Positions 1-13,919 of a stretch of DNA of 13,919 nucleotides are shown in pieces. This stretch comes from an uncultured Streptomyces sp. (GTDB lineage Bacteria > Actinomycetota > Actinomycetes > Streptomycetales > Streptomycetaceae): NCBI GenBank assembly GCA_946480485.1, contig CAMLJW010000091.1, forward strand, positions 1 to 13,919, read 5' to 3'. Made by a program: the position numbers and the translations under genes. The number at the start of each line of letters is the position of its first letter. Position 1 is the stretch's first letter. Below the pieces are notes generated by a model. It had not been told where the DNA came from, searched no databases, and saw only the letters and a program-made list of their open reading frames with translations.

Positions 1-359
1 GCGGCGCGACGAGCCAGGGACTGCTCTTCTCGCTGCCCGTCGACCTGTCGCGCGTCCAGCCGTATTCGCAGGCCGGCTCCTCGGCTCGGCTCGGCGTCGT
101 CGGCGTGCGTCGGCTCCGCTGTCGCCACGTGAAGGCACTCCGTGTCCTGTTCGAAGTTCCGCTTCGGCCGGCTCGCGGCCGACGACCTGCCCCGATTCCG
201 GCGACGCTAGCACGCACCCCGCCGGGGAGCGCCCGGGCGGCTCTCCGGGGACGGGGTGCGGTCGGTTTGCTACGGCAGGGCGCGTACTTCGTGCTGTGGC
301 ACAGCGGTGTACGTGCCATCAGCTCACCGATGTGGCTGTTTCACCCCTGCGTGTGTGCG
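1..359. other. Downstream flank of the carboxypeptidase gene; no confident gene
   Basis: This stretch holds one strong hairpin (described separately) and no gene I can assign. On the minus strand two overlapping frames open toward the window edge. One starts at a GTG at 136-138, with AGGA six bases upstream, and gives an Arg/Ala-rich N-terminus. The other starts at a GTG at 126-128 and begins MATAEPTHADDAEPSR. Either could be the first residues of a further minus-strand gene continuing to the left, but third-position GC is only moderate in both and the visible part is too short to name. The 10-mer TCAGCTCACC occurs at 319-328 and again at 360-369, where it covers the carboxypeptidase stop codon. 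Confidence 0.3.
214..259 (-). terminator. GC-rich hairpin downstream of the carboxypeptidase gene, candidate terminator
   Basis: GCACCCC at 214-220 pairs with GGGGTGC at 253-259. The stem continues with CCGGGGAG against CTCTCCGG, with a small bulge, around a loop that contains the self-complementary CGCCCGGGCG. There is no T-tract on either side, as in many high-GC actinomycete terminators. It lies about 100 bp past the end of the minus-strand carboxypeptidase gene. Confidence 0.4.
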
Positions 360-3002
360 TCAGCTCACCCGGGTCAGCTTGGCACCGTAGCCCGGTTCGG
401 TGAGGTCCGACTGGAGCGCGACCGGGATTTCGACGGCGTCGCCCGTGCCGTCGCCGACGCTCAGCGAGCCGACCTTCGTGCCCGCCTTCGCCTCGTGCGG
501 GATGGTCGTGCCTTCCTCGCTCAGTGTCAGCTTCACCATCTGCCCGGCCCAGCCCACCGCGGAGACGTCCTTCGCGGCGACCACGGGGGCGTGACCGGCG
601 AGCCCGTCGTCCACGTACCCGACGACGTCACCCTTCTTGAGGATCGTCCGCGAGGTCAGCGCGTCCTGCGCGGCGACCAGCGCGGTCTTACTGACCGCGT
701 TGACGGTGTCGATGATCGGCGGCTTGTGCTGGCCGAGGACCGCACCGACGACGATGACGATCTCGCCGCCGACGTCTCGGGTGGCGGCGAAGAGCAGGTT
801 GCCACCGGCCCTGGTGGTGGAACCGGTCTTGATGCCGATGGCGTTGTTGTACGGGACGAGGCGGTTGTAGTTCTGCCAGACCCGGCCCGATGGGTCCTTC
901 CAGACGGGCAGCTTGGTGATGTCCACCAACGCCTGCATCCTGACCAGCTGGTTGCCGAGCTTGACCTGGTCCTCGGCGGTGGAAACGGTGGTCTCCTTCA
1001 GCCCGGAGGGGTCGGTGTACTTCGTGTTCTTCATCCCGAGGTCCTTCGCGGCGTCGTTCATCTTCTTGACGAACGCCTCCTCGGAACCGGCGTCCCAGCG
1101 GGCCAGCAGCCGCGCGACGTTGTTCGCGGACGGAATCATGATGGCCGCCAGCGCCTGCCTCTCGGTGAGGGTGTCGCCCGCCTTGACGGTGTTGAGCGTG
1201 GACTCGCCATCCTTGTCGTAACCGCCCTCCGTCTCGGCCTTCGCGTCGACGGGGATGCTCTTGCCCTCTTCACCGGATTTCAGCGGGTAATCCTTGAGAA
1301 TCACGTACGCGGTCATGGCCTTGGCGACCGAACCGATGGCGACGGGCTGCTGCTCTCCGAAACTGTCGACCGTGCCGATGCCGTTGACGTCCATCCAGCC
1401 CTGGCCCTCGTCGGGCCACGGCAGGGACACCTTGTCCCCCTCGAAGGCGTACGTCTCCTCGGCCGTCAGGGCGAGGGTGGGCGTCGGCAGCGGCCGCACA
1501 GCCTGTACGACTGCGAACACCACGACCAGCAGCAGCACCAGAGGAGTCCAGATCTTGACCCGACGCACGATCGTCCGCACCGGTGTCTGCGGAGGCGGCG
1601 GCGTGTTCGTCAACTCCGCCAACAGGTCCAACGGCGCCATGGGCGGCAACGGTTGCTGGGTCGTCCGCTCGGGGCCGATCTGGGGAATGGCGGCGGTCTC
1701 GGAGGCCGGCGTAACGGATGGTTTCTCCGCGGGCGGTGTGATCGGCTTCGGCTTCGGCGAAGCCGGTGCGTCAAGCGGCTTGAGGGCCACGAATGTGCTG
1801 GTGCGCTCGGCGTCACGCTCGGGGTCGGGCTTTGTGGCGGAGCTGCCACCGGGATCGGGAGTGGAGTGGGTCTGGGGAGTGACGGACTTGTCCCCTGCCT
1901 CGCTTACCTGCCCATCCCCCTGCCCGTCTCCCTGCCTGTCTCCCGGCTTCTCGTCGGGCTTCGCGTCCGGCTCGGCGCCGCCCAGCTTGAGCATGGTCGT
2001 GGGCTGGTCCACGGCGGGCGGGCGAGCCCTGAAGGTAGTGGTGGGCTGATCCACACGGGGCTCGGCGTCGTCCCCCGCGGCTTCCCCGTCGGCCGGCGAG
2101 GCGGCTTCGCCGTCGGCGGACGGAGTCGTATCGGCTTCGGCCGACAGGGTCGCATCGGCGGCTTCGGCCTCGGCCTTGGCCCCGGTGTCCGCAGCCACGC
2201 CAACGGCGCCCGCGGACTCGGTATCGGTACCGCGCGCAGGCGGGTCTTCCTTGCCGTTCGAGGCAGCGGTGCCGGACGCGCCGTCTGTGGTGTCTTCCGC
2301 CCCACCGTCGGCGCGAACGTCGTCCTTAGCCGGAGACTCGGCCGCAGTGGCGTCGTCCCGCGGGGAGTCGGCACCCGCCTCGTCAGCCGTACCCGCGTCG
2401 GCCTCGGGCGAAGCAGCGGTCTCCGCCTCGGCCCGTGACTCACCGTCACGGTCACCATCGAGGTCGCCATCCGAACTCCCGGCAGCCGACGCACCGTCAG
2501 CCACCGATCCGGAATCGGCGTCCTCGGCTCCCGAGGCGCCGTCAGCGCCCCCGGCCTCCTCGTCGTCCGTCCCCGCAACCCAAGCCGCCACAGCGTTCCT
2601 CAGCCGCGCGGCACCCGCCTTGCCCTCTGTCGCCCCGGACTGCGAGGCACCCTCAACCTCCGGAGAGCCCGAAGAGCCCGTATCCGAAGCGCCCGAACCC
2701 GACACGCCCGAACCCGACTCGGCGGCCCGCTCCGCGACCCCCGCTGTGGAGAACACCGCCGTAGCCGTATCCACCCGTGATGCCGCCGTCACGGCCTCCC
2801 GGGCGACCGCGAGCCGCGGATCAGCGTCCGGCACGGGCCGAGAGTCGGCACCTTCGCCCGAGCGGGAACCGGCATCCGCAGTCCCCGATCCCGTCGGCGC
2901 CGCCGGCCACGGAACGGAAGCCGGAACCGGAGCCGTGCTCCCCGACGTCGGTTCTATCGACGACTCGTGCTGCTTCGATCTGTCGGGGGACTCGCCCGCC
3001 AC
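360..3002 (-). CDS. D-alanyl-D-alanine carboxypeptidase (peptidase S11, PBP5 type) with long disordered cytoplasmic N-terminus
   Basis: This is a low-molecular-weight penicillin-binding protein that trims the terminal D-Ala from peptidoglycan stem peptides outside the membrane. From the GTG at 3000-3002 the protein is 880 aa. Residues 1-480 are low-complexity and rich in Ala, Asp, Glu, Ser and Thr. One membrane segment (TPLVLLLVVVFAVVQAV) lies near 484-502, and the S11 domain follows. All three catalytic motifs are intact: SVAK (about 558-561), SAN (625-627) and KTG (725-727). A C-terminal beta-type domain ends the protein. I chose this start because GGAGGAGG sits five bases before it; longer in-frame ATG starts at 3015-3017 and 3096-3098 have weaker sites. 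Canonical PBP5 proteins are about 400 aa, so about half of this one is extension. The topology suggests an inside N-terminus and an outside enzyme. It is divergent from the GPP34 gene. Confidence 0.94.
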   Translation of the reverse strand: MAGESPDRSKQHESSIEPTSGSTAPVPASVPWPAAPTGSGTADAGSRSGEGADSRPVPDADPRLAVAREAVTAASRVDTATAVFSTAGVAERAAESGSGVSGSGASDTGSSGSPEVEGASQSGATEGKAGAARLRNAVAAWVAGTDDEEAGGADGASGAEDADSGSVADGASAAGSSDGDLDGDRDGESRAEAETAASPEADAGTADEAGADSPRDDATAAESPAKDDVRADGGAEDTTDGASGTAASNGKEDPPARGTDTESAGAVGVAADTGAKAEAEAADATLSAEADTTPSADGEAASPADGEAAGDDAEPRVDQPTTTFRARPPAVDQPTTMLKLGGAEPDAKPDEKPGDRQGDGQGDGQVSEAGDKSVTPQTHSTPDPGGSSATKPDPERDAERTSTFVALKPLDAPASPKPKPITPPAEKPSVTPASETAAIPQIGPERTTQQPLPPMAPLDLLAELTNTPPPPQTPVRTIVRRVKIWTPLVLLLVVVFAVVQAVRPLPTPTLALTAEETYAFEGDKVSLPWPDEGQGWMDVNGIGTVDSFGEQQPVAIGSVAKAMTAYVILKDYPLKSGEEGKSIPVDAKAETEGGYDKDGESTLNTVKAGDTLTERQALAAIMIPSANNVARLLARWDAGSEEAFVKKMNDAAKDLGMKNTKYTDPSGLKETTVSTAEDQVKLGNQLVRMQALVDITKLPVWKDPSGRVWQNYNRLVPYNNAIGIKTGSTTRAGGNLLFAATRDVGGEIVIVVGAVLGQHKPPIIDTVNAVSKTALVAAQDALTSRTILKKGDVVGYVDDGLAGHAPVVAAKDVSAVGWAGQMVKLTLSEEGTTIPHEAKAGTKVGSLSVGDGTGDAVEIPVALQSDLTEPGYGAKLTRVS

Positions 3003-3242
3003 CGATGCCTCCTCCATGCGCCACTCACCGTGCGCCCAACCGAACCATGGACCCTTGAAGAGCCGCCAACAGTCGCCCGGACGCACTGTCCGAACCATGT
3101 ACCAGTGTCCCGTGTGCGGGCTTAACCCTTGCGGTAGACGACAACGACATAGCTACTGGTTCCACTACGAACCGGTCACGCACCCTCGACAGACCATTGT
3201 GAGAGGGGTCACCCTGTCATTCATCCACGCGGGGAGGCATGG
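3003..3242. promoter_or_regulatory. Divergent promoter region with a palindrome
   Basis: This region lies between the divergent carboxypeptidase and GPP34 genes. ACTGGTTC (3155-3162), a 6-nt spacer and GAACCGGT (3169-3176) form an inverted repeat with one G·T-type mismatch. On the minus strand GTGACC and TAGCTA, about 17-18 bp apart, overlap this dyad and could be a -35/-10 pair for the carboxypeptidase gene. The ribosome site for the GPP34 gene (GGGGAGG) lies at about 3231-3237. Promoter positions are guesses by eye. Confidence 0.35.
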
Positions 3243-3998
3243 ATGGGCAGGAGCCGAAGAACACTTCCGGAGGAGCTTCTACTGCTGGCGTTGAACCCGA
3301 CCACGGGTACCACCGCGCAGCCGCAGTCGCTCGACCTCGGTCTGGCCGGAGCACAGCTAGTGGAGCTGGCGCTGGCCGGACGGATAGCCCCAGACGGGGA
3401 TCGTATCGCCGTGGTGGTACCACGGCCGACCGGAGATCCGACTTTGGACTGCGCGTTGGAGTTGCTGCGAAGGCGTGGCGCTCCCGTGCGTGCGGTTCAC
3501 TGGATTGGCGGGCCCCGACTGGGGCTGCGCCAGACGTATCTCTCGTATTTGGAGCGCTGCGGCATGGTCCATGCCGTCGCGGGCCAGATGTGCGGGGTGC
3601 TGCCGACGACTCGCTATCAGGCGACGGACACGGCCATCAGCCGGGAGATCAGGGCCCGGCTGGATTCCGCCATAAGGACCGGTGTGCCACCGGACCCACG
3701 GACGGCCGCGCTCGCCGCACTGGCGCACGCCGTGGGCCTGGGCAAGCACCTCTACCCGGGGACCGAAGGGCGCTCCTCGCGCTCCCGCCTCCGGGACCTG
3801 ATCAGGCACGACCCCATGGGCGGCCTCGTGGCACACGCCGTGATGGACGTTCAGAACGGTGCGGCAGCCCAGCCGCGCCGCAGCCCGGCACCGGTCGGCC
3901 GACAGGTCGCCCCCCGAGCCAGGCCGGCACCGGAACCCGCTCGGCATGTACCGATGCCACCGCACCGCGGTTCCATGGTGCGCGTCGTAGCCTACTGA
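3243..3998 (+). CDS. GPP34 (GOLPH3/VPS74-like) family protein
   Basis: The 251-aa protein carries the hallmark N-terminus of bacterial GPP34 proteins: LPEELLLLALNP, then LDLGLAGAQLVELALAGRI, then a helical core. Eukaryotic GOLPH3/VPS74 binds phosphatidylinositol-4-phosphate and retains Golgi glycosyltransferases. The role of the actinobacterial members is largely unknown, so only a peripheral membrane or lipid-associated role can be inferred. Residues from about 205 to the end form a Pro/Arg/Ala-rich, probably flexible tail. The ATG at 3243 has GGAGG five bases upstream; an ATG at 3239 is in another frame and was rejected. The gene is divergent from the membrane carboxypeptidase and precedes the XRE–DUF397 pair with a 474-bp gap, so it is probably a separate transcript. 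Confidence 0.88.
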   Translation: MGRSRRTLPEELLLLALNPTTGTTAQPQSLDLGLAGAQLVELALAGRIAPDGDRIAVVVPRPTGDPTLDCALELLRRRGAPVRAVHWIGGPRLGLRQTYLSYLERCGMVHAVAGQMCGVLPTTRYQATDTAISREIRARLDSAIRTGVPPDPRTAALAALAHAVGLGKHLYPGTEGRSSRSRLRDLIRHDPMGGLVAHAVMDVQNGAAAQPRRSPAPVGRQVAPRARPAPEPARHVPMPPHRGSMVRVVAY

Positions 3999-4010
3999 GC
4001 CGCTGATTCA

Positions 4011-4028
4011 CCGCGCAGACAAGCGCGG
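4011..4028 (+). terminator. Perfect hairpin just after the GPP34 gene
   Basis: CCGCGC (4011-4016), AGACAA loop and GCGCGG (4023-4028) form a perfect 6-bp GC stem 13 nt after the stop codon. No T-tract follows. The 3' arm is also the first part of the 16-bp tandem repeat, so it could instead be incidental to the repeat. Confidence 0.35.
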
Positions 4029-4065
4029 CACAGTCAGGGCGCGGCACAGTCAGGGCGCGGCACAG
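4023..4065. repeat. 16-bp tandem repeat, about 2.7 copies
   Basis: The unit GCGCGGCACAGTCAGG occurs at 4023-4038, again without change at 4039-4054, and partially at 4055-4065. Identical copies suggest recent slippage. It sits between the GPP34 gene and a second, more diverged 15-bp repeat. Confidence 0.9.
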
Positions 4066-4115
4066 ACCAACACCGCGGAAACGGGCATGACACGACCGCA
4101 GCCGTCACGACTTCG

Positions 4116-4175
4116 GTCAGCACAGCTGCGGTCAGCACGGCCGCCGTCAGCACCAACGCGCTCAGCACCACCACG
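4116..4175. repeat. 15-bp tandem repeat, four copies
   Basis: The core (G/C)TCAGCAC recurs at exactly 15-bp intervals at 4116, 4131, 4146 and 4161, with a degenerate unit before the first. The period is a multiple of three, so every frame reads as a pentapeptide repeat: VSTAA-like in one plus frame, RSAxx in another, and a hydrophobic VLTAA-like run on the minus strand. No frame has a convincing ribosome site, so it is treated as non-coding. The rest of 4176-4376 shows nothing else I can assign. Confidence 0.85.
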
Positions 4176-4376
4176 CACCACGCATACCGTCAGCGCCGCA
4201 CCGCAAGGCCTCACAACCGGTTCGGAGCCGCAGGGCCGCGCGGGGCAGCAGGCCGTACGTCCGCACGACGGCACGGCCCACCGCCCCGCGCGGCCGCGTA
4301 TCACCACGTATCCGTCCCCCGTCGCCGCCACCGATCCACACCAGGTGGCGTGAGGTGGCGCGTACGCAGCGCATAT

Positions 4377-4472
4377 CCGCTGTTTTCCAGCGGTAGCGAG
4401 CACCTTGGTGGCAATCTGCTCAACAGCAGATACGCAAAGTGCAGGCAGCACGCAGCCGGAGGTGCACGTCCC
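4377..4472 (+). promoter_or_regulatory. Leader/operator region of the XRE regulator with a perfect inverted repeat
   Basis: ATCTGCT (4414-4420), CAAC and AGCAGAT (4425-4431) form a perfect 7+4+7 dyad about 42 bp before the start codon, a typical place for an autoregulatory operator of an XRE protein. A second small hairpin, CCGCTG-TTTTC-CAGCGG, lies at 4377-4393. GGAGGT at about 4459-4464 is the ribosome site. A TTGGTG at 4405-4410 could be a -35 element, but no clear -10 is placed. Confidence 0.5.
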
Positions 4473-5330
4473 GTGGCGTCCCATGTCAATCCCACCGTCA
4501 GGCGACGCCGGTTGGGCCAGGAGCTGCGTCGGCTCCGAGAGCTCAAGGGCATGACAGCCGAAGAGGTCGCCGAGCGCCTGCTGGTCTCGCAGTCGAAGAT
4601 CAGCCGCCTGGAGAACGGCCGTCGCAGCATCAGCCAGCGCGACGTGCGCGACCTGTGCGCCGTCTACGAGGTCGAGGACCACCGCGTCGTCGAGTCCCTG
4701 ATGCAGATGGCGAAGGACTCCCGCCAACAGGGCTGGTGGCACTCCTTCGGCGACATCCCGTACAGCGTCTACATCGGCCTGGAGACGGACGCGGCATCCC
4801 TGCGCGTGTACGACCCCCAAGTCGTCCCGGGGCTCCTGCAGACCCACCCCTATGCCGAAGCACTGATCGCCGGCGCATTGCCGGAGACCGCGTCCGGCGA
4901 GATCGAGAAGCGCGTGCAGGTACGGCTGCGGCGACAGGAACGTATCTCCGCCCCGGAGAACCCGCTGCGCCTGTGGACCGTCCTCGACGAGGCCGCCCTG
5001 CGCCGCGTCGTCGGCAACCGCGAGCTCATGCGCGAACAGCTGGAACACCTCGTCGAGCAGTCCCGACTGCCGCACGTCACCGTGCAGGTGATCCCCTTCG
5101 AGATGGGCGCACATCCGGGACTCAACGGTCAGTACGCGATCCTCGAGTTCCCCGACGCGGCGGATTCCAGTGTCGTCTACATCGAGGGCGTCACCAGTGA
5201 TCTCTATCTGGAGAAGGCGAACGATGTACAGAAATACAGCGTGATGTACGAGCATTTGCGGGCACAGGCCCTGAACGTTGATCAATCGCGGCAATTCATC
5301 TCGGACATCGCGAAAGTGTATGCAATCTGA
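4473..5330 (+). CDS. XRE-family regulator with DUF5753 domain (Scr1/WhiJ-like)
   Basis: This is a DNA-binding regulator of the large actinobacterial XRE–DUF5753 family. The N-terminal Cro/C1 helix-turn-helix covers about residues 10-55 (LGQELRRLRELKGMTAEEVA, then the recognition segment VSQSKISRLENG). The DUF5753 domain, probably a ligand or partner-binding part, covers about 100-275 (QVVPGLLQTHPYAEALI, VTVQVIPFEMGAHPGL, VVYIEG). The length of 285 aa is normal. The start is taken at the GTG at 4473 because GGAGGT lies nine bases upstream. An in-frame ATG at 4350 would add 41 residues before the helix-turn-helix and has no good site. It is followed 265 bp later by a DUF397 gene. This pairing is known for WhiJ-like loci and for Scr1/Scr2 (SCO4441/SCO4442) of S. 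coelicolor, reported to activate antibiotic production. Orthology to Scr1 is my inference. Confidence 0.94.
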   Translation: MASHVNPTVRRRRLGQELRRLRELKGMTAEEVAERLLVSQSKISRLENGRRSISQRDVRDLCAVYEVEDHRVVESLMQMAKDSRQQGWWHSFGDIPYSVYIGLETDAASLRVYDPQVVPGLLQTHPYAEALIAGALPETASGEIEKRVQVRLRRQERISAPENPLRLWTVLDEAALRRVVGNRELMREQLEHLVEQSRLPHVTVQVIPFEMGAHPGLNGQYAILEFPDAADSSVVYIEGVTSDLYLEKANDVQKYSVMYEHLRAQALNVDQSRQFISDIAKVYAI

Positions 5331-5595
5331 AACTGCGTAGAGGGGAGCTGACGCCAGTTCAACCTGCCACTACGCCGGAAAAGTCTTAATAATATACCTT
5401 CGCCACATCCCGATGGAAGACTCCGGGCGAATATGCCACCCGGTCGAGTGAATCGTCTCTTCGTGCACCGAAGTTGGCGAGTAGCGTCGATCACACCAAG
5501 CAGCGACAACCTTGGCGCAAACCGAACCGTGGGATCCAGAGCGAGCGGACCCGCAGCGCGGTGACAGCCACTCACCACTGAGTACCGGAGCGAAC
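5331..5595 (+). promoter_or_regulatory. Spacer between XRE and DUF397 genes, with dyads and a possible promoter
   Basis: The 265-bp spacer includes an A/T-rich patch at about 5386-5396, rare in this GC-rich DNA. It also has a CTTCG-TGCAC-CGAAG hairpin (5459-5473) and a GGTGA-7 nt-TCACC dyad (5560-5576) just before the DUF397 ribosome site. A possible -35/-10 is TTCGTG (5460-5465) and TAGCGT (5482-5487) with a 16-bp spacer. The spacer length suggests the DUF397 gene has its own promoter. The assignments are by eye only. Confidence 0.35.
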
Positions 5596-5796
5596 ATGGC
5601 AATTCAGCAAGGCGCCACGGATACCTGGACCACATCCTCGTATTCCACCGGCAACGGCGCATGTGTAGAGGTCAAGTCCCCCGCCCTGTCGGCGCTGGCC
5701 GTCCGCGACTCCAAAGTCCCCGAGGGCCCCACGCTGGCCTTCCCGGCCGACTCGTGGAACGCCTTCGTGGCAGAGGTGAGCCGGAGCACCGTCTGA
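5596..5796 (+). CDS. DUF397 small protein, partner of the XRE regulator (Scr2-like)
   Basis: The 66-aa protein has the full DUF397 signature: WTTSSYSTGNGACVEV near the N-terminus, AVRDSK in the middle and WNAFVAEV at the C-terminus. DUF397 proteins are small cytoplasmic partners usually encoded next to XRE–DUF5753 regulators and thought to modulate or neutralise them; toxin–antitoxin-like behaviour has been discussed for such pairs. The ATG at 5596 has GGAG five bases upstream. A longer frame from 5512 adds 28 residues unlike the family and was rejected. A strong intrinsic terminator follows, so the XRE–DUF397 unit ends here. Confidence 0.93.
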   Translation: MAIQQGATDTWTTSSYSTGNGACVEVKSPALSALAVRDSKVPEGPTLAFPADSWNAFVAEVSRSTV

Positions 5797-5854
5797 CCTC
5801 GAGGGACGCCTCGCACGACGAGAGCCTCGACAACTTTACAAGCACCGCGAGAAG

Positions 5855-5899
5855 AGCCCTCTCGACTGACCGCCGTCCCAGCCGAGGGGGCTGTTTTTT
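5855..5899 (+). terminator. Intrinsic terminator after the DUF397 gene
   Basis: AGCCCTCTCG (5855-5864) pairs with CGAGGGGGCT (5883-5892), with one G·T pair, and a run of six T follows at 5894-5899. It is the clearest rho-independent terminator in the window. Confidence 0.88.
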
Positions 5900-6143
5900 G
5901 GGCTCGGTTCGCCTCCGGGGCACACCCCTTCGACGCATTCGCCGTAGGGCGTCCTGACAAACCCTTTCGACCTGCTTCACGTACGCCATACGGTCGCCGG
6001 GCATCGGGTTCGGGCGGAAGGTGCGGCTCGGCCATGGTGATCAGGGCACGGCCCGGACGGACGCCGTACGGGCCCCACGGCGGCCAACCCCGCGTTCCCC
6101 CTCGCTGCGGGTCTCCTCAGTCACCTCCATCACGTCGCTCCCC
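5900..6143. other. Convergent intergenic region, no gene seen
   Basis: This lies between the DUF397 terminator and the 3' end of the minus-strand ADP-ribosylglycohydrolase-like gene. A CGCCGT-9 nt-ACGGCG hairpin lies at 6062-6082 and might act as a terminator for the minus-strand gene, without a T-tract. No frame here combines a ribosome site with coding-like third-position use. Confidence 0.4.
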
Positions 6144-7259
6144 CTAAGCCCGCGGATACCGTGCCAGCCACCCCGGCGAGGACCCGGCCGGGCCGTGCAG
6201 AGCGGGTCCCTGGGTCATCTCCATCGCGAAGTCGTCGGCGAGGGCGAGCATCGTGGGGCGGCCCTCCAGCCCGGCCAGCCAGGCCGGCGGGAGGGCGGTC
6301 TCACCGTTGAGCGCGCCGAGCAGGGCTCCGGTGAGGGCGCCGGCGGCGCCCGACGGGCCACCGTGGTTCACTGCGAGGCACAGCCCCTGGCGGGTGTCCT
6401 CGCCGACCAGCGCGCAGTACACGGCGACCGACAGAACCCCCTCCGCCGTACCCGCCCCGGCCAGCTCCTCGACCCGGGACGGCGTCGGCATCCCCTGCCG
6501 TACGGCACCCAGCGCGTGCTGCAGCGCGTCCGCGACCGGCTGCTGTCCCGGCCGCAGGGCGAGCAGCTGGAGCGAGCGCTGCACAGCGGCGTCAAGGCTC
6601 TCGCCGCGGGCGAGGCCCTGCACGATCACGGCGTACGCGCCTGCCGCAAGGTAGGCCGTGGGGTGCCCGTGGGTCTGCGTCGCGCACTCGACGGCGAGCT
6701 GCATCACGAGCTGCGGCTCCCAACCGACAAGCAGCCCGAAGGGAGCGGAGCGGGCCGCGGCCTCAACGCCGCGGTCCTCCGGGTTCTTGGGCGCGGTCAG
6801 CGTGCCCATCAGCTCGTCGCGCAGGCCGAGCAGACAGGCGCGAGCGGGCTCGCGGCGCGCGTACAGCCACTCCTCGCGGGCCAGCCACCCGTCCTCCTTG
6901 CGGCGTTCGTCCGGCCCCCAGTCGTGCTGCGTGGCGGCCCACCGCAGATACGCGCGGTGCAGATCCGTCGGCGGATGCCAGGCGCCCGTGTCCCGACGCA
7001 CCTGGGCACGTATGAGCCCGTCGAACGTGAAGAGTGTCAGCTGGGTCAGATGCGAGACGGCGCCGCGATTGCCGTACCCGAAGGGCAGGTCTGTGAGCCC
7101 ATCCGCGCCGTACGCCTCGCGGATCTCCTCCATCGAGAGGTCCCCGACCGGCGAGCCCAGCGCATCCCCCACAGCCGCGCCGAGCAGCGTGCCACGCACC
7201 CGGCTACGGAAGTCCTGCTGTTCGGCACGGCCCCAGACGGCACCGGACGTAGTACCCAC
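6144..7259 (-). CDS. ADP-ribosylglycohydrolase (DraG/ARH) family protein, probably catalytically dead
   Basis: The fold signature GTLLGAAVGDALGSPVGD (residues about 23-40) and the later NHGG plus GALTGALLGAL segment place this 371-aa protein in the ADP-ribosylglycohydrolase family. Active members remove ADP-ribose from protein side chains using two Mg2+ ions held by an Asp-Asp-Thr motif and a C-terminal Asp-x-Asp motif. Here the first motif reads SHLT (69-72) and the second reads PSGAAG (302-307), so the main metal ligands are missing while the rest of the fold looks preserved and the frame is intact. It may bind ADP-ribose or another ligand without cleaving it. The GTG at 7257-7259 is preferred because GGAGGAGG lies five bases upstream; an in-frame GTG at 7316 has no such site. 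It is a stand-alone gene on the minus strand. Confidence 0.88.
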   Translation of the reverse strand: MGTTSGAVWGRAEQQDFRSRVRGTLLGAAVGDALGSPVGDLSMEEIREAYGADGLTDLPFGYGNRGAVSHLTQLTLFTFDGLIRAQVRRDTGAWHPPTDLHRAYLRWAATQHDWGPDERRKEDGWLAREEWLYARREPARACLLGLRDELMGTLTAPKNPEDRGVEAAARSAPFGLLVGWEPQLVMQLAVECATQTHGHPTAYLAAGAYAVIVQGLARGESLDAAVQRSLQLLALRPGQQPVADALQHALGAVRQGMPTPSRVEELAGAGTAEGVLSVAVYCALVGEDTRQGLCLAVNHGGPSGAAGALTGALLGALNGETALPPAWLAGLEGRPTMLALADDFAMEMTQGPALHGPAGSSPGWLARYPRA

Positions 7260-7300
7260 CGAGGCCTCCTCCGATCCGATCCGGATCCCGATCCCGTCCC

Positions 7301-7332
7301 GTACGGCTACCGTCACGTACGGCTACCGCCAC
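7301..7332. repeat. 16-bp direct tandem repeat, two copies
   Basis: GTACGGCTACCGTCAC (7301-7316) is followed directly by GTACGGCTACCGCCAC (7317-7332), with one difference. It lies in the leader of the ADP-ribosylglycohydrolase-like gene. Confidence 0.85.
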
Positions 7333-7491
7333 CTACGACTCCCGTCCTGAGGGCCGTCAGTCGAGCACTGTAATCGAACGGGAACGGTGGACTGAGGCGG
7401 GAACGGTTTGCGAACCTTGGGGCGACTGGTCGCTTTCTGGGCGGGCGATCGGCCTCAGGAGGAGTACGGGAGGTAACCGCGGGAGGGTCGC
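7333..7491. promoter_or_regulatory. Upstream region of the ARH-like gene with spaced direct repeats
   Basis: CGGGAACGGT occurs at 7379-7388 and 7398-7407, exactly 19 bp apart (near two helical turns), which is a common layout for a regulator site. Immediately after come two small palindromes: GGTT-TGCG-AACC (7405-7416) and GCGAC-TG-GTCGC (7422-7433). No -35/-10 pair could be placed with confidence. Confidence 0.4.
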
Positions 7492-7764
7492 ATGCGCTGC
7501 CTCGTCGACGGCGCACGCCGCACCGGCCACCTCGTGTACGAGTCCACCGCGCCCCGGGGACAGGACAGCGAGCAGCTCCTTGGCCCCCAGCCGGGCGCGG
7601 CCCTGGTCCGCCCTACGGCCGGCCCAGCACCGGCAACAGCTCCGGCACGTGCCCGTCCCAAGCCGAAGCCGCCTGCTGCCGTTCCTCCGGGACCTCCCCG
7701 TACAAGGTGGTGCGCGGCTTCGCCGGGCGATCCGCTGCCTCCGCGACGGCGATCAGGTCCTTGA
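7492..7764 (+). CDS. Possible small hypothetical protein overlapping the 3' end of fbiC
   Basis: This 90-aa frame starts with an ATG that has GGGAGG five bases upstream. Its first 40 codons have strongly G/C third positions, as real genes here do. That part reads [20 protein letters not shown] and contains no domain I recognise. From 7613 on it runs antisense to the last 50 codons of fbiC and becomes Pro/Arg/Ala-rich, which looks like a shadow of fbiC. The true gene may therefore be a short protein that lost its original end, or the 3' part may be spurious. Treat as uncertain. Confidence 0.4.
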
Positions 7765-10213
7765 CGGACTTGTAGGAGCCGTAACCGGAGCCCGCCATAC
7801 GGGAGATGGTCTCCTCCATCAGTGTGCCGCCGACGTCGTTCGCTCCGGAGCGGAGCATGTCGGCCGCGCCCTGGGTGCCCAGCTTCACCCAGCTGGTCTG
7901 GATGTTGGGGATGTGGGGGTGGAGGAGCAGCCGGGCCATCGCGGTGACGGCGCGGTTGTCCCTCGCTGTCGGGCCGGGGCGCGCGATGCCCGCCAGGTAC
8001 ACGGGCGCGTTGGTATGGATGAACGGCAGGGTCACGAACTCCGTGAAGCCGCCCGTCTGTTGCTGGATCCGGGAGAGCGTACGGAAGTGGCCCAGCCAGT
8101 GACGGGGCTGGTCCACGTGCCCGTACATCATGGTGGACGAGGAGCGGATGCCCAGCTCATGGGCCGTGGTCACCACCTCGATCCACGTCGCCGTGGGCAG
8201 CTGGCCCCGGGTCAGCACCCAGCGGACCTCGTCGTCGAGGATCTCGGCCGCCGTGCCCGGGATGGAGTCGAGGCCCGCCTCCTTCGCGGCGGTCAGCCAT
8301 TCACGGATCGACAGGCCCGTGCGCGTCGCGCCGTTCACCACCTCCATCGGCGAGAAGGCGTGCACATGCATGCCGGGAACGCGGGATTTCACGGCCCGTG
8401 CGATGTCGAAGTACGCCGTCCCCGGCAGGTCGGGGTGGATCCCGCCCTGCATGCAGACCTCCACCGCGCCCACGTCCCACGCCTGGGCGGCCCGGTCGGC
8501 GACCTGGTCGAGCGACAGGGTGTACGCGTCGGCGTCGGTGCGGCGCTGCGCGAAGGCGCAGAACCGGCAACCGGTGTAGCAGACATTGGTGAAGTTGATG
8601 TTCCGGGTGACGATGTACGTGACGTCGTCGCCGACCACCGACGTGCGGACGCCGTCCGCGACCCGGCAGAGCGCGTCCAGCGCCGGCCCGTCCGCGTGCA
8701 GTAGCGCCAGCGCCTCGTCGTCGGTGAGCCGGGTCGGGTCGTCGGCCGCCGTCGCGAGCGCCGCCCGCACGTCCGTGTCGATCCGCGACGGCACCATCCC
8801 GGGTGCCGCCGCTTCCCGCAGCGCCTCCCAGTCGCCGTACACCTCGTCGAAGTCGTTCCGCCGGTCGCTCGTACGTCCCGCCGTGTCGATGGTGTGGTGC
8901 AGATCCGTACGGCCCGAGGCCGTGAACGCCTCCTCGGGCTCCTGCCAGGGCTGCCCCGTGACGAGAGCATCCGGGTCCGCCAGGCCCGTCCTTGGATCAG
9001 CCAGCGCCCGTACGTGCGGCAGCAGCCGCGGGTCCAGCCACGGCTCGCCCCGCTGCACGAACTCCGGGTACACACACAGCCGTTCTCGCAGCTCGAAGCC
9101 GGCCTCCGCGGACTGCTCCCGCAGGAGGTCGATCTGTGGCCAGGGCCGCTCAGGGTTGACGTGGTCGATGGTGAGGGGCGAGACCCCGCCCCAGTCGTCG
9201 ATCCCGGCGCCGATGAGCCGCCCGTACTCTCCGTCGACGAGATTCGGCGGGGCCTGGAGGCAGGCGCTCGGCCCCATGACGTGCCGGGCGACGGCGACCG
9301 TGGCGACCAGGTCGTCCAGCTCCGCGTCCGGCATCCCGCGCATCGCCGTGTCCGGCTTGGCCCGGAAGTTCTGGATGATCAGTTCCTGGATGCCGTGGTA
9401 CGCACGCGAGACGCGGCGCAGCGCGAACAGCGACTCCGCCCGCTCCTCGTACGTCTCCCCGATCCCGATCAGCAGCCCGCTGGTGAAGGGGACGGACGAC
9501 CGCCCCGCATCCTCCAGCACGCGCAGCCGCACCGCCGGCTCCTTGTCGGGCGACCCGTGGTGCGGGCCGCTCGGCTCGGACCACAGCCGCGTGGCGGTCG
9601 TCTCCAGCATCATGCCCATGCTGGGCGCGACGGGCTTGAGCCGCTGGAAGTCGGTCCACGCCACGACACCCGGGTTGAGATGCGGCAGCAGCCCCGTCTC
9701 CTCCAGGACGCGGATCGAGATGGCCCGTACGTAGGCGATCGTGTCGTCGTAACCATGCGCGTCCAGCCACTCGCGCGCCTCCGGCCAGCGGTCCTCGGGC
9801 TTGTCGCCGAGGGTGATCAGGGCTTCCTTGCAGCCGAGTTCGGCACCGCGCCGGGCGATGTCGAGCACCTCGTCCGGGGACATGAACATCCCATGCCCGG
9901 CCCGGCGCAGCTTGCCGGGAACGGTGACGAACGTGCAGTAGCGGCACCTGTCGCGGCACAGCCGGGTGAGCGGGACGAAGACGCTCTTCGAGTACGTGAT
10001 GATCCCCGGCCGGCCCGCGGCCGCCAGGCCCGCGTCCCTCACCCGCCCGGCGGACGCCGCCAGGCCCTCCAGGTGCTCCCCGCGCGCCTGAAGCAGCACG
10101 GCCGTCTCGGCGACATCGAGCGCAACGCCGTCGCGGGCGCGTTTGAGGGCGCGTCGCATGGCGTTCGTGGTGGGTCCGGTGGGCTCGGACAAGGAGCTCG
10201 CGGAAGTCGTCAC
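7613..10213 (-). CDS. fbiC: FO synthase, fused CofG/CofH radical SAM enzyme
   Basis: This makes FO, the deazaflavin chromophore of coenzyme F420. The CofH half joins a tyrosine-derived 4-hydroxybenzyl unit to 5-amino-6-(D-ribitylamino)uracil from the riboflavin pathway, and the CofG half closes the ring. The 866-aa protein carries two radical-SAM 4Fe-4S motifs, CRDRCRYC (Cys86, 90, 93) in the N-terminal CofG half and CYTGCRFC (Cys545, 549, 552) in the C-terminal CofH half. Both motifs and the frame are intact and the length is normal for actinobacterial FbiC. The GTG at 10211-10213 is the best start, although only a GAAGG abuts it and a TATGCT hexamer ends six bases upstream, which suggests a leaderless message. 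The next candidate, an ATG 18 codons in, has no clear site. No other F420 gene is in the window, so it appears to be a single-gene unit. Confidence 0.97.
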
Positions 10214-10269
10214 CCTTCGAGCATACGATCACATGGATCAGGCACCACTGACGCTGCGTCACAAGTGGC
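10214..10269 (-). promoter_or_regulatory. fbiC promoter candidate with palindrome
   Basis: On the minus strand TATGCT (plus 10220-10225) fits the TAnnnT form of a -10 element and would place transcription start on or beside the fbiC GTG. The palindrome TGACGCTGCGTCA lies at 10249-10261, next to where the -35 should be. No good -35 hexamer is visible, so expression may depend on an activator or another sigma factor. Confidence 0.4.
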
Positions 10270-10548
10270 GCGGCGCACAACCAGGTGTACGGCACCCCGC
10301 ACACCCGGTCCAGCTGCACGCCGGTGTCCGACCCGCCCGGCATGACGTCCGATTCCCTGCACGCCGCGTCGGGGTGCGGTCGATCCCCAGCGCCTCGCAG
10401 GCAACGTTCGCCCGTCAAGGAGCGGCGTCCGGTGCGCGTTCTGGGTGTCCGGACGCAAGTCCTCGTACGGGACGGACGTGGGCTTTCGGCTGGTGCGGCG
10501 AGAGCGCGTGGCGGGCGGCGCGACGGGGCGAACGTTGCTGTCGGGGCA
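10270..10548. other. Spacer between LuxR-type regulator and fbiC with long inverted repeat
   Basis: GCAACGTTCGCCCGTC (10401-10416) is repeated in inverted form at 10522-10538 with one extra G, enclosing about 105 bp. Nested inside is a perfect GCGTCCGG (10425-10432) / CCGGACGC (10449-10456) stem. This structured block could be the transcription end of the LuxR-type gene (no T-tract) or a tiny remnant element. A minus-strand frame from about 10418 to 10270 has G/C-rich third positions but runs on into fbiC without a stop, so no gene is called. Confidence 0.45.
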
Positions 10549-11283
10549 CTAGCTGTCGCCGGGCGCGGCTCCCAGCCACCGCAGAACCGCGTCCGTGCTG
10601 CCCCGCGCGTCCAGCTTGGAGTAGATGTTACTGAGGTTGTTGCGGACGGTCTTCTCGCTCAGGCTGAGCCGCACGCCGATCTCCTGCGCACCCAATCCGG
10701 TCGACAGCAGCTCCATGATCTGCCGCTCGCGGGGCGAGAGCGTGGACCGCAGCCGCTCCACATCGTCGCTGTGCGGGTCGACCATGCGCTGAGCCGCCTC
10801 CCTGAGGGCCGCACACGCCATCGGCGAGAGGTAGGTGTGCCCGGTCGTGGCCCCCACCACCGCCGAGGAGAGCATGCAGGTGCAGTAGTCGCCCTCCACC
10901 AGATAACCGGCGCCGCCGCGGAAGACCTCAAGGATCGTGTAGATGTCCCTCCGGGGGCTGATCACAATCAGCGACGCGTTCATGTCGCCCATGGCGCTCA
11001 GGAGCGCCGGAAAGGCGTCCGTCGGGTCTTCGCAGCGCAGCACCACGACGTCCACGGCATCGGCGATGTCGTGGGCGAGATCACGCAGGGTGTCGTAAGG
11101 CGGAGGCGCGTACAGCACGCGTCGGTTCACGTACGGATCATGCCGGGCAGGCCAGTCGTCGTGCGGCCAGTCGTCCTCGTCGCAGGCGAGGACGACGGTG
11201 ATTCTCCGGGATGAATCGGCCGAAGCAGCGAGTACGGGGGCATGATGCACCACGTCGCCCTGTCTGGAAGATCGCACCGTCAT
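10549..11283 (-). CDS. LuxR/NarL-type transcriptional regulator with atypical receiver
   Basis: The C-terminal LuxR helix-turn-helix is clear at about residues 181-238 of 244 (LSPRERQIMELLSTGLGAQE, then SLSEKTVRNNLSNIYSKL). The N-terminal part has the alternating layout of a response-regulator receiver: ITVVLACDEDD (acidic cluster 35-38), VDVVVLRCEDP and GGAGYLVEGD. The usual phosphoacceptor Asp is Arg (about 83), and the conserved Lys before the last helix is Val/Glu (about 129-130). Control by phosphorylation is therefore unlikely; ligand binding or abundance control is more plausible. No sensor kinase is nearby. The ATG at 11281-11283 with GGAAGGA four bases upstream is chosen; in-frame ATG and longer starts exist upstream (11304, 11355). 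It is divergent from the SARP gene. Confidence 0.88.
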   Translation of the reverse strand: MTVRSSRQGDVVHHAPVLAASADSSRRITVVLACDEDDWPHDDWPARHDPYVNRRVLYAPPPYDTLRDLAHDIADAVDVVVLRCEDPTDAFPALLSAMGDMNASLIVISPRRDIYTILEVFRGGAGYLVEGDYCTCMLSSAVVGATTGHTYLSPMACAALREAAQRMVDPHSDDVERLRSTLSPRERQIMELLSTGLGAQEIGVRLSLSEKTVRNNLSNIYSKLDARGSTDAVLRWLGAAPGDS

Positions 11284-11345
11284 GTGTCCTTCCGCCGCAG
11301 CCATGACCCCTGTACATACGTGCCTCACCCGAGACTTGTTCAAAG
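11284..11345 (-). promoter_or_regulatory. Promoter candidate for the LuxR-type regulator
   Basis: On the minus strand TTGAAC (plus 11338-11343) and TATGTA (plus 11313-11318) are separated by 19 bp. This resembles a housekeeping promoter with a slightly long spacer. The predicted start near 11305 would give a leader of about 22 nt to the ATG at 11283, which supports that start choice. Confidence 0.4.
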
Positions 11346-11778
11346 TTCCGACCAATTCGATGTCCGACTGTCAGACAGGTTGAGCCCGCAACCACTCATG
11401 ACCCAATGGTAGACATACGTTTCATAAGCCCACACTCCCACGACCTCTGAAGACGCGGAGCCGCGTCGGCGCCGAACGCCCCCAGCCGGTCCGTGAGTTC
11501 GCTCCGGCTCACGCGACCGGAACCGCGCCTGCCTCTGATGGGCCTGCGTCGCCCGGTACCCCCGCGGCGACTCGGCGAGCGCTTCGAGATGGCCGGCAAG
11601 GGTGCGTCTCCGTAGCCGGCGTGGCCTCCATGAGATGTACGACAGCACTGATCTGACAGTCCATCCGTTTCTTGGTAAGCGCTCTCTGGGGTGAGAGGAC
11701 TGTGTGTGAACCCTGTGAGACGTTTCGGTCCACGGTATGGCGACTTGTGATCAGAGCCTCCCCGGATGACGTATCCGC
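11346..11778. other. Intergenic region with palindromes and a gene-like remnant
   Basis: CTGTCAGACAG (11368-11378) is a perfect palindrome, and its half ACTGTCAG recurs inverted as CTGACAGT at 11653-11660. Between about 11450 and 11620 the minus strand shows a GC-rich block whose third positions look coding, first in a frame reading GHLEALAESPRGYRATQAHQ. After about 11520 the coding look moves to another frame reading SELTDRLGAFGADAAPRL. That pattern fits a frameshifted remnant of an old gene that I cannot name. The flanks are less GC-rich and look regulatory. Confidence 0.35.
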
Positions 11779-11811
11779 CATGAACAAGGCAAACTGGCCT
11801 GGTTGTTCATG
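11779..11811 (+). promoter_or_regulatory. Perfect 9-bp inverted repeat just upstream of the SARP gene
   Basis: CATGAACAA (11779-11787), 15 nt and TTGTTCATG (11803-11811) form a perfect dyad, with GGC/GCC able to extend the stem after a small bulge. It ends 21 bases before the ATG. It could be an operator or an mRNA hairpin controlling translation. Confidence 0.55.
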
Positions 11812-11832
11812 ACGGTCGGCAGGGGGACAGCG

Positions 11833-13725
11833 ATGGACGGTGTACCACGCGTACCGGAGCCGCGCACACCTGAGCAGTCGCGCCCCGAGGAATCGGCGGC
11901 GCTCCGCTTCACCGTGCTCGGACCGGTGCGCGCCTGGCGGGGGGCGGAACCCTTGCCCACCGGGTCCCCGCAGCAGCGTGCGCTGCTCGCGGCGCTGCTC
12001 CTGCGCGAGGGCCGTACGGCCACGGCTGCGGAACTGATCGACGCGCTCTGGGGCGAAAAGCCGCCGTCCCAGGCACTGGCGGCGGTCCGTACGTACGCCT
12101 CCCGGCTGCGGAAGGTTCTCGGCGCCGGCGTCCTGGTCAGCGAGTCGGGCGGGTACGCGATCCGGTCACTGGGCGACGGGGCGCTGGACCTCGCCCTGGC
12201 CCAGGAGCTGGCGGCGGACGCGGAGAAGGCGCATAACTCCCGGGATCTCCGCCATGCGCGGGCGCTCATCAACGAGGCGCTGAGCCTGTGGGACGGGGAG
12301 GTGCTGGCGAGCGTTCCCGGGCCGTACGCCGACACGCAGCGGACCCGGCTCGAGGAGTGGCGGCTCCAACTCGTCGAGTCACGGCTCGGCATGGACCTGG
12401 ACCAGGGCTGCCACGCGGAGGCGGTCTCCGAACTGACCGCTCTGACGGCGGCGCATCCGCTTCGCGAGCGGCTGCGGGAACTGCTGATGCTGGCGCTGTA
12501 CCGTTCCGGCCGTCAGGCGGAGGCCCTGGCCGTGTACGCGGACACGCGGCGCCTGCTGGCGGACGAGCTGGGGGTCGACCCACGCCCCGGTCTGAAGGAG
12601 CTCCAGCAGCGGATCCTGCGGGCGGACCCCGGCTTGGCGGAACCGTCGGCGCCGGTGGCGGAGCCCTCGGCAGCGACCGTGAAGCCGGCTCAACTCCCGG
12701 CGAGCGTATCGGACTTCACCGGACGGGCCTCTTTCGTGGCCGAGCTGAGTGAGGTGCTGTCGGCGGCGTCCGCGGCCGAGGGCCGGGTGATGGCGGTGTC
12801 GGCGCTGGCCGGGATAGGCGGCGTGGGGAAGACGACGCTGGCCGTGCACGTGGCGCACCGGGCGCGGACCTCGTTCCCCGACGGCCAGTTGTACGTGGAC
12901 CTCCAGGGGGCCGGAGCGCGGGCCGCCGAGCCGGAAACGGTACTGGGCGCTTTCCTCCGCGCCCTGGGCACGGCGGACTCGGCGATTCCGGACTCCCTGG
13001 AGGAGCGGGCGGCGCTGTACCGGTCGGTGCTGGACGGGCGGCGGGTACTGGTGTTGCTGGACAACGCGCACGACGCGGCCCAGGTACGCCCCCTGCTCCC
13101 CGGGACGGAGGGGTGCGCGGCGCTGGTGACCTCGCGCGTGAGGATGGTGGACCTGGCCGGTGCCCATCTGGTCGACCTGGATGTGATGTCGCCCGAGGAA
13201 GCGCTGTCGCTGTTCACGAAGATCGTCGGCAAGGAGCGTGTGACCTCCGAACGACAGGCCGCACTGGACGTCGTCGCGGCGTGCGGTTTCCTACCGCTCG
13301 CGATCCGCATCTCGGCGTCGCGGCTCGCGGCGCGTCGTACGTGGACGGTGTCCGTACTCGCGGCGAAGCTCGCGGACGAGCGGCGCCGGCTGGATGAACT
13401 GCAGGCCGGGGATCTGGCGGTCAAGGCGACGTTCGAGCTCGGCTACGGGCAGCTGGAGCCGGCACAGGCGCGGGCCTTCCGGTTGCTGGGGTTGGCCGAC
13501 GGCCCGGATATCTCGCTGGCCGCGGCCGCCGCTGTGCTGAACCTTCCACTGGGCGCGACGGAGGACTTGCTGGAGTCGCTGGTCGACACGTCGTTGGTGG
13601 AGTCCGCGGCGCCCGGTCGCTACCGGTACCACGACTTGGTCCGGCTCTACGCGCGTGCGTGTGCGGAGCGGGATGAGCAGCCGCCGAGTGAGCGGGGCGC
13701 GGCGATGTCCCGGTTGCTGGCATGA
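11833..13725 (+). CDS. AfsR/SARP-type regulator with NB-ARC (STAND) ATPase domain, no TPR region
   Basis: This is a SARP-family transcriptional regulator, usually an activator of secondary metabolism. Residues about 24-110 are the OmpR-like winged helix (LRFTVLGPVRAW to SGGYAI). Residues 117-265 are the bacterial transcriptional activation domain (ALYRSGRQAEAL, LLADELGVDPRPGL). From about 290 comes NB-ARC with Walker A GIGGVGKTT (327-335), Walker B VLVLLD (405-410), sensor TSR (433-435), GLPL-like CGFLPLA (484-490) and the MHD-like YHDLVRLYA (599-607). The 630-aa protein ends at SRLLA, where AfsR (about 990 aa) would go on into TPR repeats. Short SARP-NB-ARC proteins exist, but here the end coincides with an abrupt change of gene content, so truncation is likely. 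The ATG at 11833 with GGGGGA six bases upstream is preferred over starts at 11803 and 11809. I saw no TTA codon. Confidence 0.9.
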   Translation: MDGVPRVPEPRTPEQSRPEESAALRFTVLGPVRAWRGAEPLPTGSPQQRALLAALLLREGRTATAAELIDALWGEKPPSQALAAVRTYASRLRKVLGAGVLVSESGGYAIRSLGDGALDLALAQELAADAEKAHNSRDLRHARALINEALSLWDGEVLASVPGPYADTQRTRLEEWRLQLVESRLGMDLDQGCHAEAVSELTALTAAHPLRERLRELLMLALYRSGRQAEALAVYADTRRLLADELGVDPRPGLKELQQRILRADPGLAEPSAPVAEPSAATVKPAQLPASVSDFTGRASFVAELSEVLSAASAAEGRVMAVSALAGIGGVGKTTLAVHVAHRARTSFPDGQLYVDLQGAGARAAEPETVLGAFLRALGTADSAIPDSLEERAALYRSVLDGRRVLVLLDNAHDAAQVRPLLPGTEGCAALVTSRVRMVDLAGAHLVDLDVMSPEEALSLFTKIVGKERVTSERQAALDVVAACGFLPLAIRISASRLAARRTWTVSVLAAKLADERRRLDELQAGDLAVKATFELGYGQLEPAQARAFRLLGLADGPDISLAAAAAVLNLPLGATEDLLESLVDTSLVESAAPGRYRYHDLVRLYARACAERDEQPPSERGAAMSRLLA

Positions 13726-13919
13726 CATTGGTCCACATTGCCGCCTACTGCAACGACCTCAGCCGTCTCGACAGTATTGCGGAGGACCAATGGTGCTATC
13801 CCACCGGGGCCGCGTTGAAGGTTGACAACTGCGATCCGCTCTCCGGATTTTTGGAAAAGGAAGGCTACCGGCTGCCGACGGCGGCCGAATGGGAGCATGC
13901 CGCCCGCGGCGGCTCGACC
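13722..13919 (+). CDS. FGE-sulfatase (SUMF1-like) domain fragment, 5'-truncated and cut by the window end
   Basis: Sixty-six codons are visible. AAYCNDLSRLDSIAEDQWCY and then GYRLPTAAEWEHAARGG are hallmark segments of the formylglycine-generating-enzyme/sulfatase-modifying fold, of the subtype with an EDQWCY segment seen in large bacterial multidomain proteins. The usual first 100 or so residues (GGxFxMG onward) are absent. The ATG overlaps the SARP stop as ATGA, yet there is no ribosome site. Family-like sequence (DVPVAGMTLVHIAAYC) can be read in this frame back to about 13704, inside the SARP gene. Third positions are less GC-rich than in the SARP gene (TAT, TTT, GAA, GTT, TTG). I read this as the rest of a broken or fused gene rather than a normal start. 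The catalytic part, if any, lies outside the window. Confidence 0.72.
   Translation, partial: MTLVHIAAYCNDLSRLDSIAEDQWCYPTGAALKVDNCDPLSGFLEKEGYRLPTAAEWEHAARGGST

Follow-up and report, generated by a model that had tools for sequence, protein, structure and literature searches.

A 5' part of afsR and an internal piece of an FGE-sulfatase-domain gene abut close to the end of the stretch of uncultured Streptomyces DNA analysed here, and we conclude that this odd joint is very probably a chimera, an artefactual join of two DNAs made during sequencing or assembly, and not a new protein. Two kinds of DNA meet at a breakpoint, the bases around it are compatible with both genes, and an almost identical intact AfsR exists elsewhere. 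From these sequence comparisons we infer that the source of the tail was another bacterium, and that the switch took place in the laboratory or in software, not in a cell. Throughout, "the window" means the whole stretch of 13,919 nucleotides.

Genomic context

Up to base 13720, the window is Streptomyces DNA (Table 1). The two-part radical-SAM protein is presumably FbiC, and a LuxR-type regulator lies between its gene and afsR. Related afsR stretches were represented by the best 80 of 516 found, with at most 6 kb examined upstream of each. Upstream of afsR, fbiC was present in 21 of these 80 loci and a luxR-type gene in 15, and the two occurred together in none; the order fbiC, luxR, afsR on one contig is also found in genomes G004 and G001. 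The spacing between fbiC and the luxR-type gene is about 14 kb in G004 and 17 kb in G001. In the window, only about 1.6 kb (10214-11832) separates fbiC from afsR, with the luxR-type gene between them.

This short interval contains an imperfect palindrome of about 156 bp (10397-10552, between fbiC and luxR), a dispersed element that looks MITE-like or like a repeated intergenic hairpin. Folded as single-strand DNA, positions 10390-10560 give -59.9 kcal/mol (z -5.1). Of 81 Streptomyces genomes, with 10 candidates scored in each, 33 carry similar copies and often more than one; genome G050 has 19 matches, both strands of the palindrome counted. An Rfam search of the window, palindromic element included, returned no match, and a scan of 11300-13919 for promoters and terminators found none.

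Table 1. Features of the window, with positions counted from its first base
Feature	Positions	Strand	Basis
D-Ala-D-Ala carboxypeptidase	363-3098	-	Pfam
GPP34 protein	3243-3995	+	Pfam
HTH/DUF5753 regulator	4473-5327	+	Pfam
ADP-ribosylglycohydrolase	6147-7316	-	Pfam
Radical-SAM protein, two-part	7616-10213	-	Pfam
LuxR-type regulator	10552-11301	-	Pfam
afsR 5' part, from ATG 11833: SARP (Trans_reg_C + BTAD) + NB-ARC/NOD	11833-13720	+	NCBIfam NF053617, Pfam, blastn
Overlap stretch fitting both genes, presumed shared word	13698-13720	+	afsR DNA; FGE-frame RGDVPVA(G)
ATGA overlap: stop of the afsR frame (13723-13725) and in-frame ATG of the FGE piece	13722-13725	+	Sequence, frames
Putative foreign tail: internal FGE-sulfatase-domain piece without N-terminal part	13721-13919	+	PF03781, P0002

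An afsR gene cut after codon 629

The afsR part comprises 629 codons and the first base of codon 630 (base 13720). Pfam finds BTAD, NB-ARC and Trans_reg_C in the window protein, so that the SARP DNA-binding and BTAD domains are followed by NB-ARC as in AfsR, the SARP-NOD-TPR STAND global regulator of Streptomyces (NF053617; PDB 8k60, 8jke). The N-terminal SARP and NB-ARC parts are the same, but the window protein is cut after codon 629 and its TPR half is missing: it has 630 aa, against the roughly 986 aa of an AfsR with a C-terminal TPR half and a score above the curated cut-off. Its NF053617 match, 1230 bits over profile positions 6-628 of 986, falls below the family cut-off of 1430. Residues 1-629 align to residues 1-635 of the solved AfsR chain 8k60 (1101 bits). 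The ATG at 11833 is taken as the start; the window's own protein in the collection (P0122, on a 15,552-bp contig) begins at its M, and P0123 and P0126 begin at its counterpart. The mechanically called open reading frame of afsR opens at a TTG at 11803. The frame ends with ...SERGAAMSRLLA-TGA (AMSRLLA), with the stop at 13723-13725, in agreement with the preliminary description, which had it end at SRLLA.

The same description placed the break exactly at the TPR boundary, which proves too precise. The published S. coelicolor delta-TPR construct stops at residue 618 of AfsR (PMC10936776). In the 8k60 alignment this residue corresponds to about residue 612 of the window protein; the break lies about 17 residues beyond it, and among 117 AfsR relatives high conservation persists to about residue 650. 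As judged from these alignments, the break coincides only loosely with the TPR boundary, lying near it and not exactly at it.

A tail unlike Streptomyces DNA

The tail is 199 bases long and reads MTLVHIAAYCN...AARGGST from 13722, a total of 66 residues that run off the window end; its frame has no stop between an in-frame TGA at 13689 and the end of the window. It passes the gathering cut-off for PF03781 (28.8 bits against 23.3) without amounting to a complete domain. The match enters the 255-position profile at 102 and the first 40% of the profile is missing from the tail, which bears out the earlier observation that a different frame enters an FGE domain lacking its N-terminal part. With FGE-sulfatase/SUMF1-like domains (PF03781) the tail shares AAYCN...GYRLPTAAEWE.AARGGS, but only 66 middle residues are present and the rest runs off the window.

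The protein search with the tail admitted candidates of 165-525 aa and gave one hit in the collection, P0002 (82% identical, 54 of 66 residues). This JGI protein of 243 aa, with 176 residues from M68 on, is encoded on a 2,681-bp contig, and its next relatives (P0003-P0006, 46-56%) are likewise JGI proteins. Two distant FGE relatives, P0056 and P0074, are labelled Planctomycetaceae and Terriglobales MAG, at 37-39% identity, which is too weak to assign a phylum.

Tail matches at E 1e-4 occur in 51 of 392 Streptomyces genomes. The one with the highest score shows 52% identity across residues 5-64, and identity rises to 63-65% in shorter stretches of 23-24 residues; in four Streptomyces relatives the tail protein has weak matches only. 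A search for P0002 in 396 Actinomycetota genomes (E 1e-20) returned 0 matches and, having been run without a positive control, carries no weight. Exact 18-base words of the tail are absent from 106 loci, and 16-base words recur in L086 only. The plasmid collection holds no near match of 13300-13919. Distant tail matches occur in 60 plasmid records, of which none covers 80% of the tail; the 20 listed of these 60 cover at most 31% of it and fall on tail bases 139-199, the conserved GYRLPTAAEWE region. In viral contigs, the tail protein gave 8 pattern matches, 0 of them confirmed.

Base composition also changes. Overall GC is 69-74% per block before the junction and 63% in the tail. The drop in third-position GC that had been reported at the junction is present as well, from 0.83-0.90 in the afsR frame (six blocks, 11836-13725) to 0.77 in the FGE frame (13726-13919).

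Two further readings were considered and set aside. Pfam examination of the tail and the seven other window proteins found no transposon- or integrase-borne insertion. A diversity-generating-retroelement variable protein was rejected; one PDB match of the tail is Treponema variable protein 1.

The junction and its overlap stretch

How far back can the FGE gene be read? The preliminary description gave a limit of about 13704 and an overlap of some 20 bp between the two reading frames. The read-back is real and extends slightly further, to about 13698, for an overlap of some 23 bp. In BLASTP the alignment of the FGE frame starts at 13695 (GRGDVPVAGMTLVHIAAYCN against ARGDTPVVSMHLVHIAAYCN), with the first identical residue at 13698. 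Here, FGE-frame RGDVPVAG faces RGDTPVVS of P0002, beginning about 23 bp upstream of the point where afsR similarity ends (13720); farther upstream there is no similarity to P0002. The nine FGE-frame residues before the join reach a BLOSUM62 score of 28 against P0002. The control set consisted of 27,336 overlapping nine-residue words from a six-frame reading of window positions 1-13694: none reach 28 against P0002, one is as good by mean score against P0002-P0005, and 11 are as good by identities (5 of 9). At the same place, one of the 80 afsR relatives equals the window's score against P0002.

The last 20 bases to 13720, GGCGATGTCCCGGTTGCTGG, occur exactly in the afsR of L004, L005 and L037 among L001-L080, so at least these 20 bases are afsR-type DNA that also fits the FGE gene; the 24 bases ending at 13720 are exact in 0 of the 80 loci. 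By our estimate, the two genes would have been joined inside 13698-13720, with a shared word of up to about 23 bp, the afsR side of which is read from DNA and the FGE side from protein similarity only. P0002 itself would differ from the window inside this stretch.

The ATGA overlap is present as described. ATGA geometry is typical of coupled genes, and a coupled start had been offered as one explanation, with a short AfsR followed by a working, truncated FGE-like gene. We consider this very improbable. The FGE domain would then start without its N-terminal part, and at least 30 residues lie upstream of the join column in 97 of the 120 FGE relatives listed (median 113 over all 120). A family that naturally starts at the join residue would favour coupling, and 18 of these 120 indeed have a predicted start no more than 15 residues from the join column, a few of them on longer contigs (P0108: 360,740 bp; P0099: 19,700 bp). 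However, the 18 are short (136-217 aa), and 10 lie on contigs of 895-1,081 bp, which makes most of them probably incomplete.

Intact afsR in relatives

Of the 80 related loci, 66 lose their blastn similarity at 13720 and the remaining 14 at 13680-13712. A tblastn search with residues 561-700 of P0123 yields one match per locus in all 80, each spanning at least residues 620-640. At the position of the break, related loci read SRLLDFYLATA with small variants (DNA of 30 and translations of 25 of the 80 were inspected). The DFYL motif lies in the longest open frame of 75 loci; its absence from that frame in the other 5 (L009, L016, L028, L044 and L066) is put down to frame choice, and L009, L016 and L044 do show the motif. 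Window positions 13400-13919 match 372 of the 392 Streptomyces genomes at E 1e-50 or better, and the other 20 have no match at that cut-off. Among the matches listed, all end at or before 13720 (query base 321) and none crosses the junction, an outcome that counts against a natural coupled pair.

Proteins tell the same story from the other side of the break. The AfsR search drew 7,820 proteins from 7,992 candidates. All but three of the 120 listed (117) have at least 950 aa; the exceptions are P0122 (630), P0166 (803) and P0217 (767), and the window's own is the only one near 630 aa. LLDFYL is present in 109 of these 120, and the six inspected of the 11 without it are the window's own protein and five in which M or V replaces the first L. 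P0123, from ENA, is an intact AfsR of 987 aa on a 6,146-bp contig, with the TPR families present. Over residues 1-629 it matches the window protein at 628 positions, the sole difference being Gly/Cys at 226, and it parts from P0122 at residue 630, where it goes on with DFYLATA. Given this near-identical intact protein, an ordinary afsR exists in the window's species or in one very close to it.

These comparisons also bear on the proposal that a natural SARP-NB-ARC-FGE fusion has suffered a one-base frameshift. STAND and FGE/C-type-lectin-like domains do co-occur in some bacterial conflict proteins, which lends the proposal some background. The window protein, however, is AfsR, whose relatives, including all 80 loci kept and P0123, continue into the TPR half, and PF03781 is found in none of the 120 AfsR relatives listed of 7,820. 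Entry into the FGE profile at 102 of 255 means that one shifted base would not yield a complete domain, both DNA similarity and GC show an origin in two parts, and none of the 392 Streptomyces genomes has a close relative of the tail. A frameshifted fusion is thus extremely improbable.

Proposed origin of the joint

The last 199 bases would be foreign to the Streptomyces chromosome that forms the rest of the window. We suggest that a read, an amplicon or a path in the assembly graph may have switched source in a mixed DNA sample, passing from the Streptomyces afsR to the FGE-domain gene of another, uncultivated bacterium where up to about 23 bp are compatible with both genes. Such a switch would truncate afsR behind codon 629 and pick up the FGE gene mid-way and out of frame, and the TGA at 13723 and the ATGA overlap would be by-products of the join. 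Chimeric contigs that join different genomes through shared k-mers are known in metagenome assembly (PMC7299287). Like these, the window holds two DNAs of different origin that flank one point, joined in a short doubly fitting stretch at the window end; the junction is likewise unseen in relatives, and an intact counterpart exists elsewhere.

Where on the contig does the joint lie? The 15,552-bp contig has 1,633 bases outside the window. No longer FGE protein from this contig appeared in the tail protein search among candidates of 165-525 aa, and P0002 has 176 residues from M68 on; the rest of the FGE gene is therefore probably off the contig, and the join probably lies near the contig end.

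Such a join is what a de Bruijn-graph misjoin or template switching would produce, and recombination at microhomology gives the same letters. The preliminary description had suggested, as one option, that recombination or deletion joined two truncated genes. Unrelated truncated genes are indeed joined, but the evidence points to an artefactual join of two organisms' DNA. In a real event, illegitimate recombination at about 20 bp of microhomology, by deletion or by insertion of acquired DNA, would have truncated afsR in one Streptomyces strain and left a foreign FGE fragment behind it. The strain would make a SARP-NOD AfsR without TPR, about like the delta-TPR construct, and the FGE piece would be inert. 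The junction stretch, which fits both genes, is consistent with this, and such a strain may well live, as TPR-less AfsR is functional in vitro, both in binding the afs box and as an activator (PMC10936776). Against it stand the almost identical intact AfsR (P0123), a tail that has no close relative in the 392 Streptomyces genomes or the plasmid collection, and a 36-base junction pattern with 0 occurrences in viral contigs. We regard real recombination as unlikely.

Against an artefact, P0123 could stem from another strain in which no such event occurred, and FGE predictions that begin near the join residue do exist, as given above. An artefactual chimera is nevertheless preferred because of the intact twin, a tail unlike Streptomyces DNA, a junction unseen elsewhere and the lack of a longer FGE protein of the contig.

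Separate variation of the two AfsR halves

The 117 full-length AfsR relatives (within P0123-P0241) were also compared by halves, in a sample chosen by similarity in the N half, which corresponds to window positions 11833-13720. Median pairwise identity is 0.90 over residues 1-629 and 0.54 from residue 661. The C-half identities form two peaks, at 0.50-0.55 and 0.70-0.75, and the rank correlation between the halves is weak (0.135). In 347 of the 687 pairs with N-half identity above 93%, the C halves share less than 65%; conversely, 0 of the 17 pairs with N-half identity below 87% exceed 80% in the C half. Among the 80 loci, the N half of P0123 is nearest to S. ureilyticus L001 (92%; C half 56%) and its C half to S. 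scabiei L078 (88%; N half 86%). By these identities, the TPR half of AfsR varies largely independently of the SARP-NOD half across Streptomyces, which looks like exchange, fast divergence or divergence into types.

Implications

Reading the joint as a chimera keeps a SARP-STAND-FGE fusion from being reported in error. The case also shows that, where a contig ends, a short doubly fitting stretch can convincingly mimic a "coupled" gene pair. Should the join be true after all, the strain would carry a naturally occurring delta-TPR AfsR, released from its sensor half and with possible effects on antibiotic regulation, and would serve as a natural experiment on how AfsR behaves when its TPR sensor is missing.
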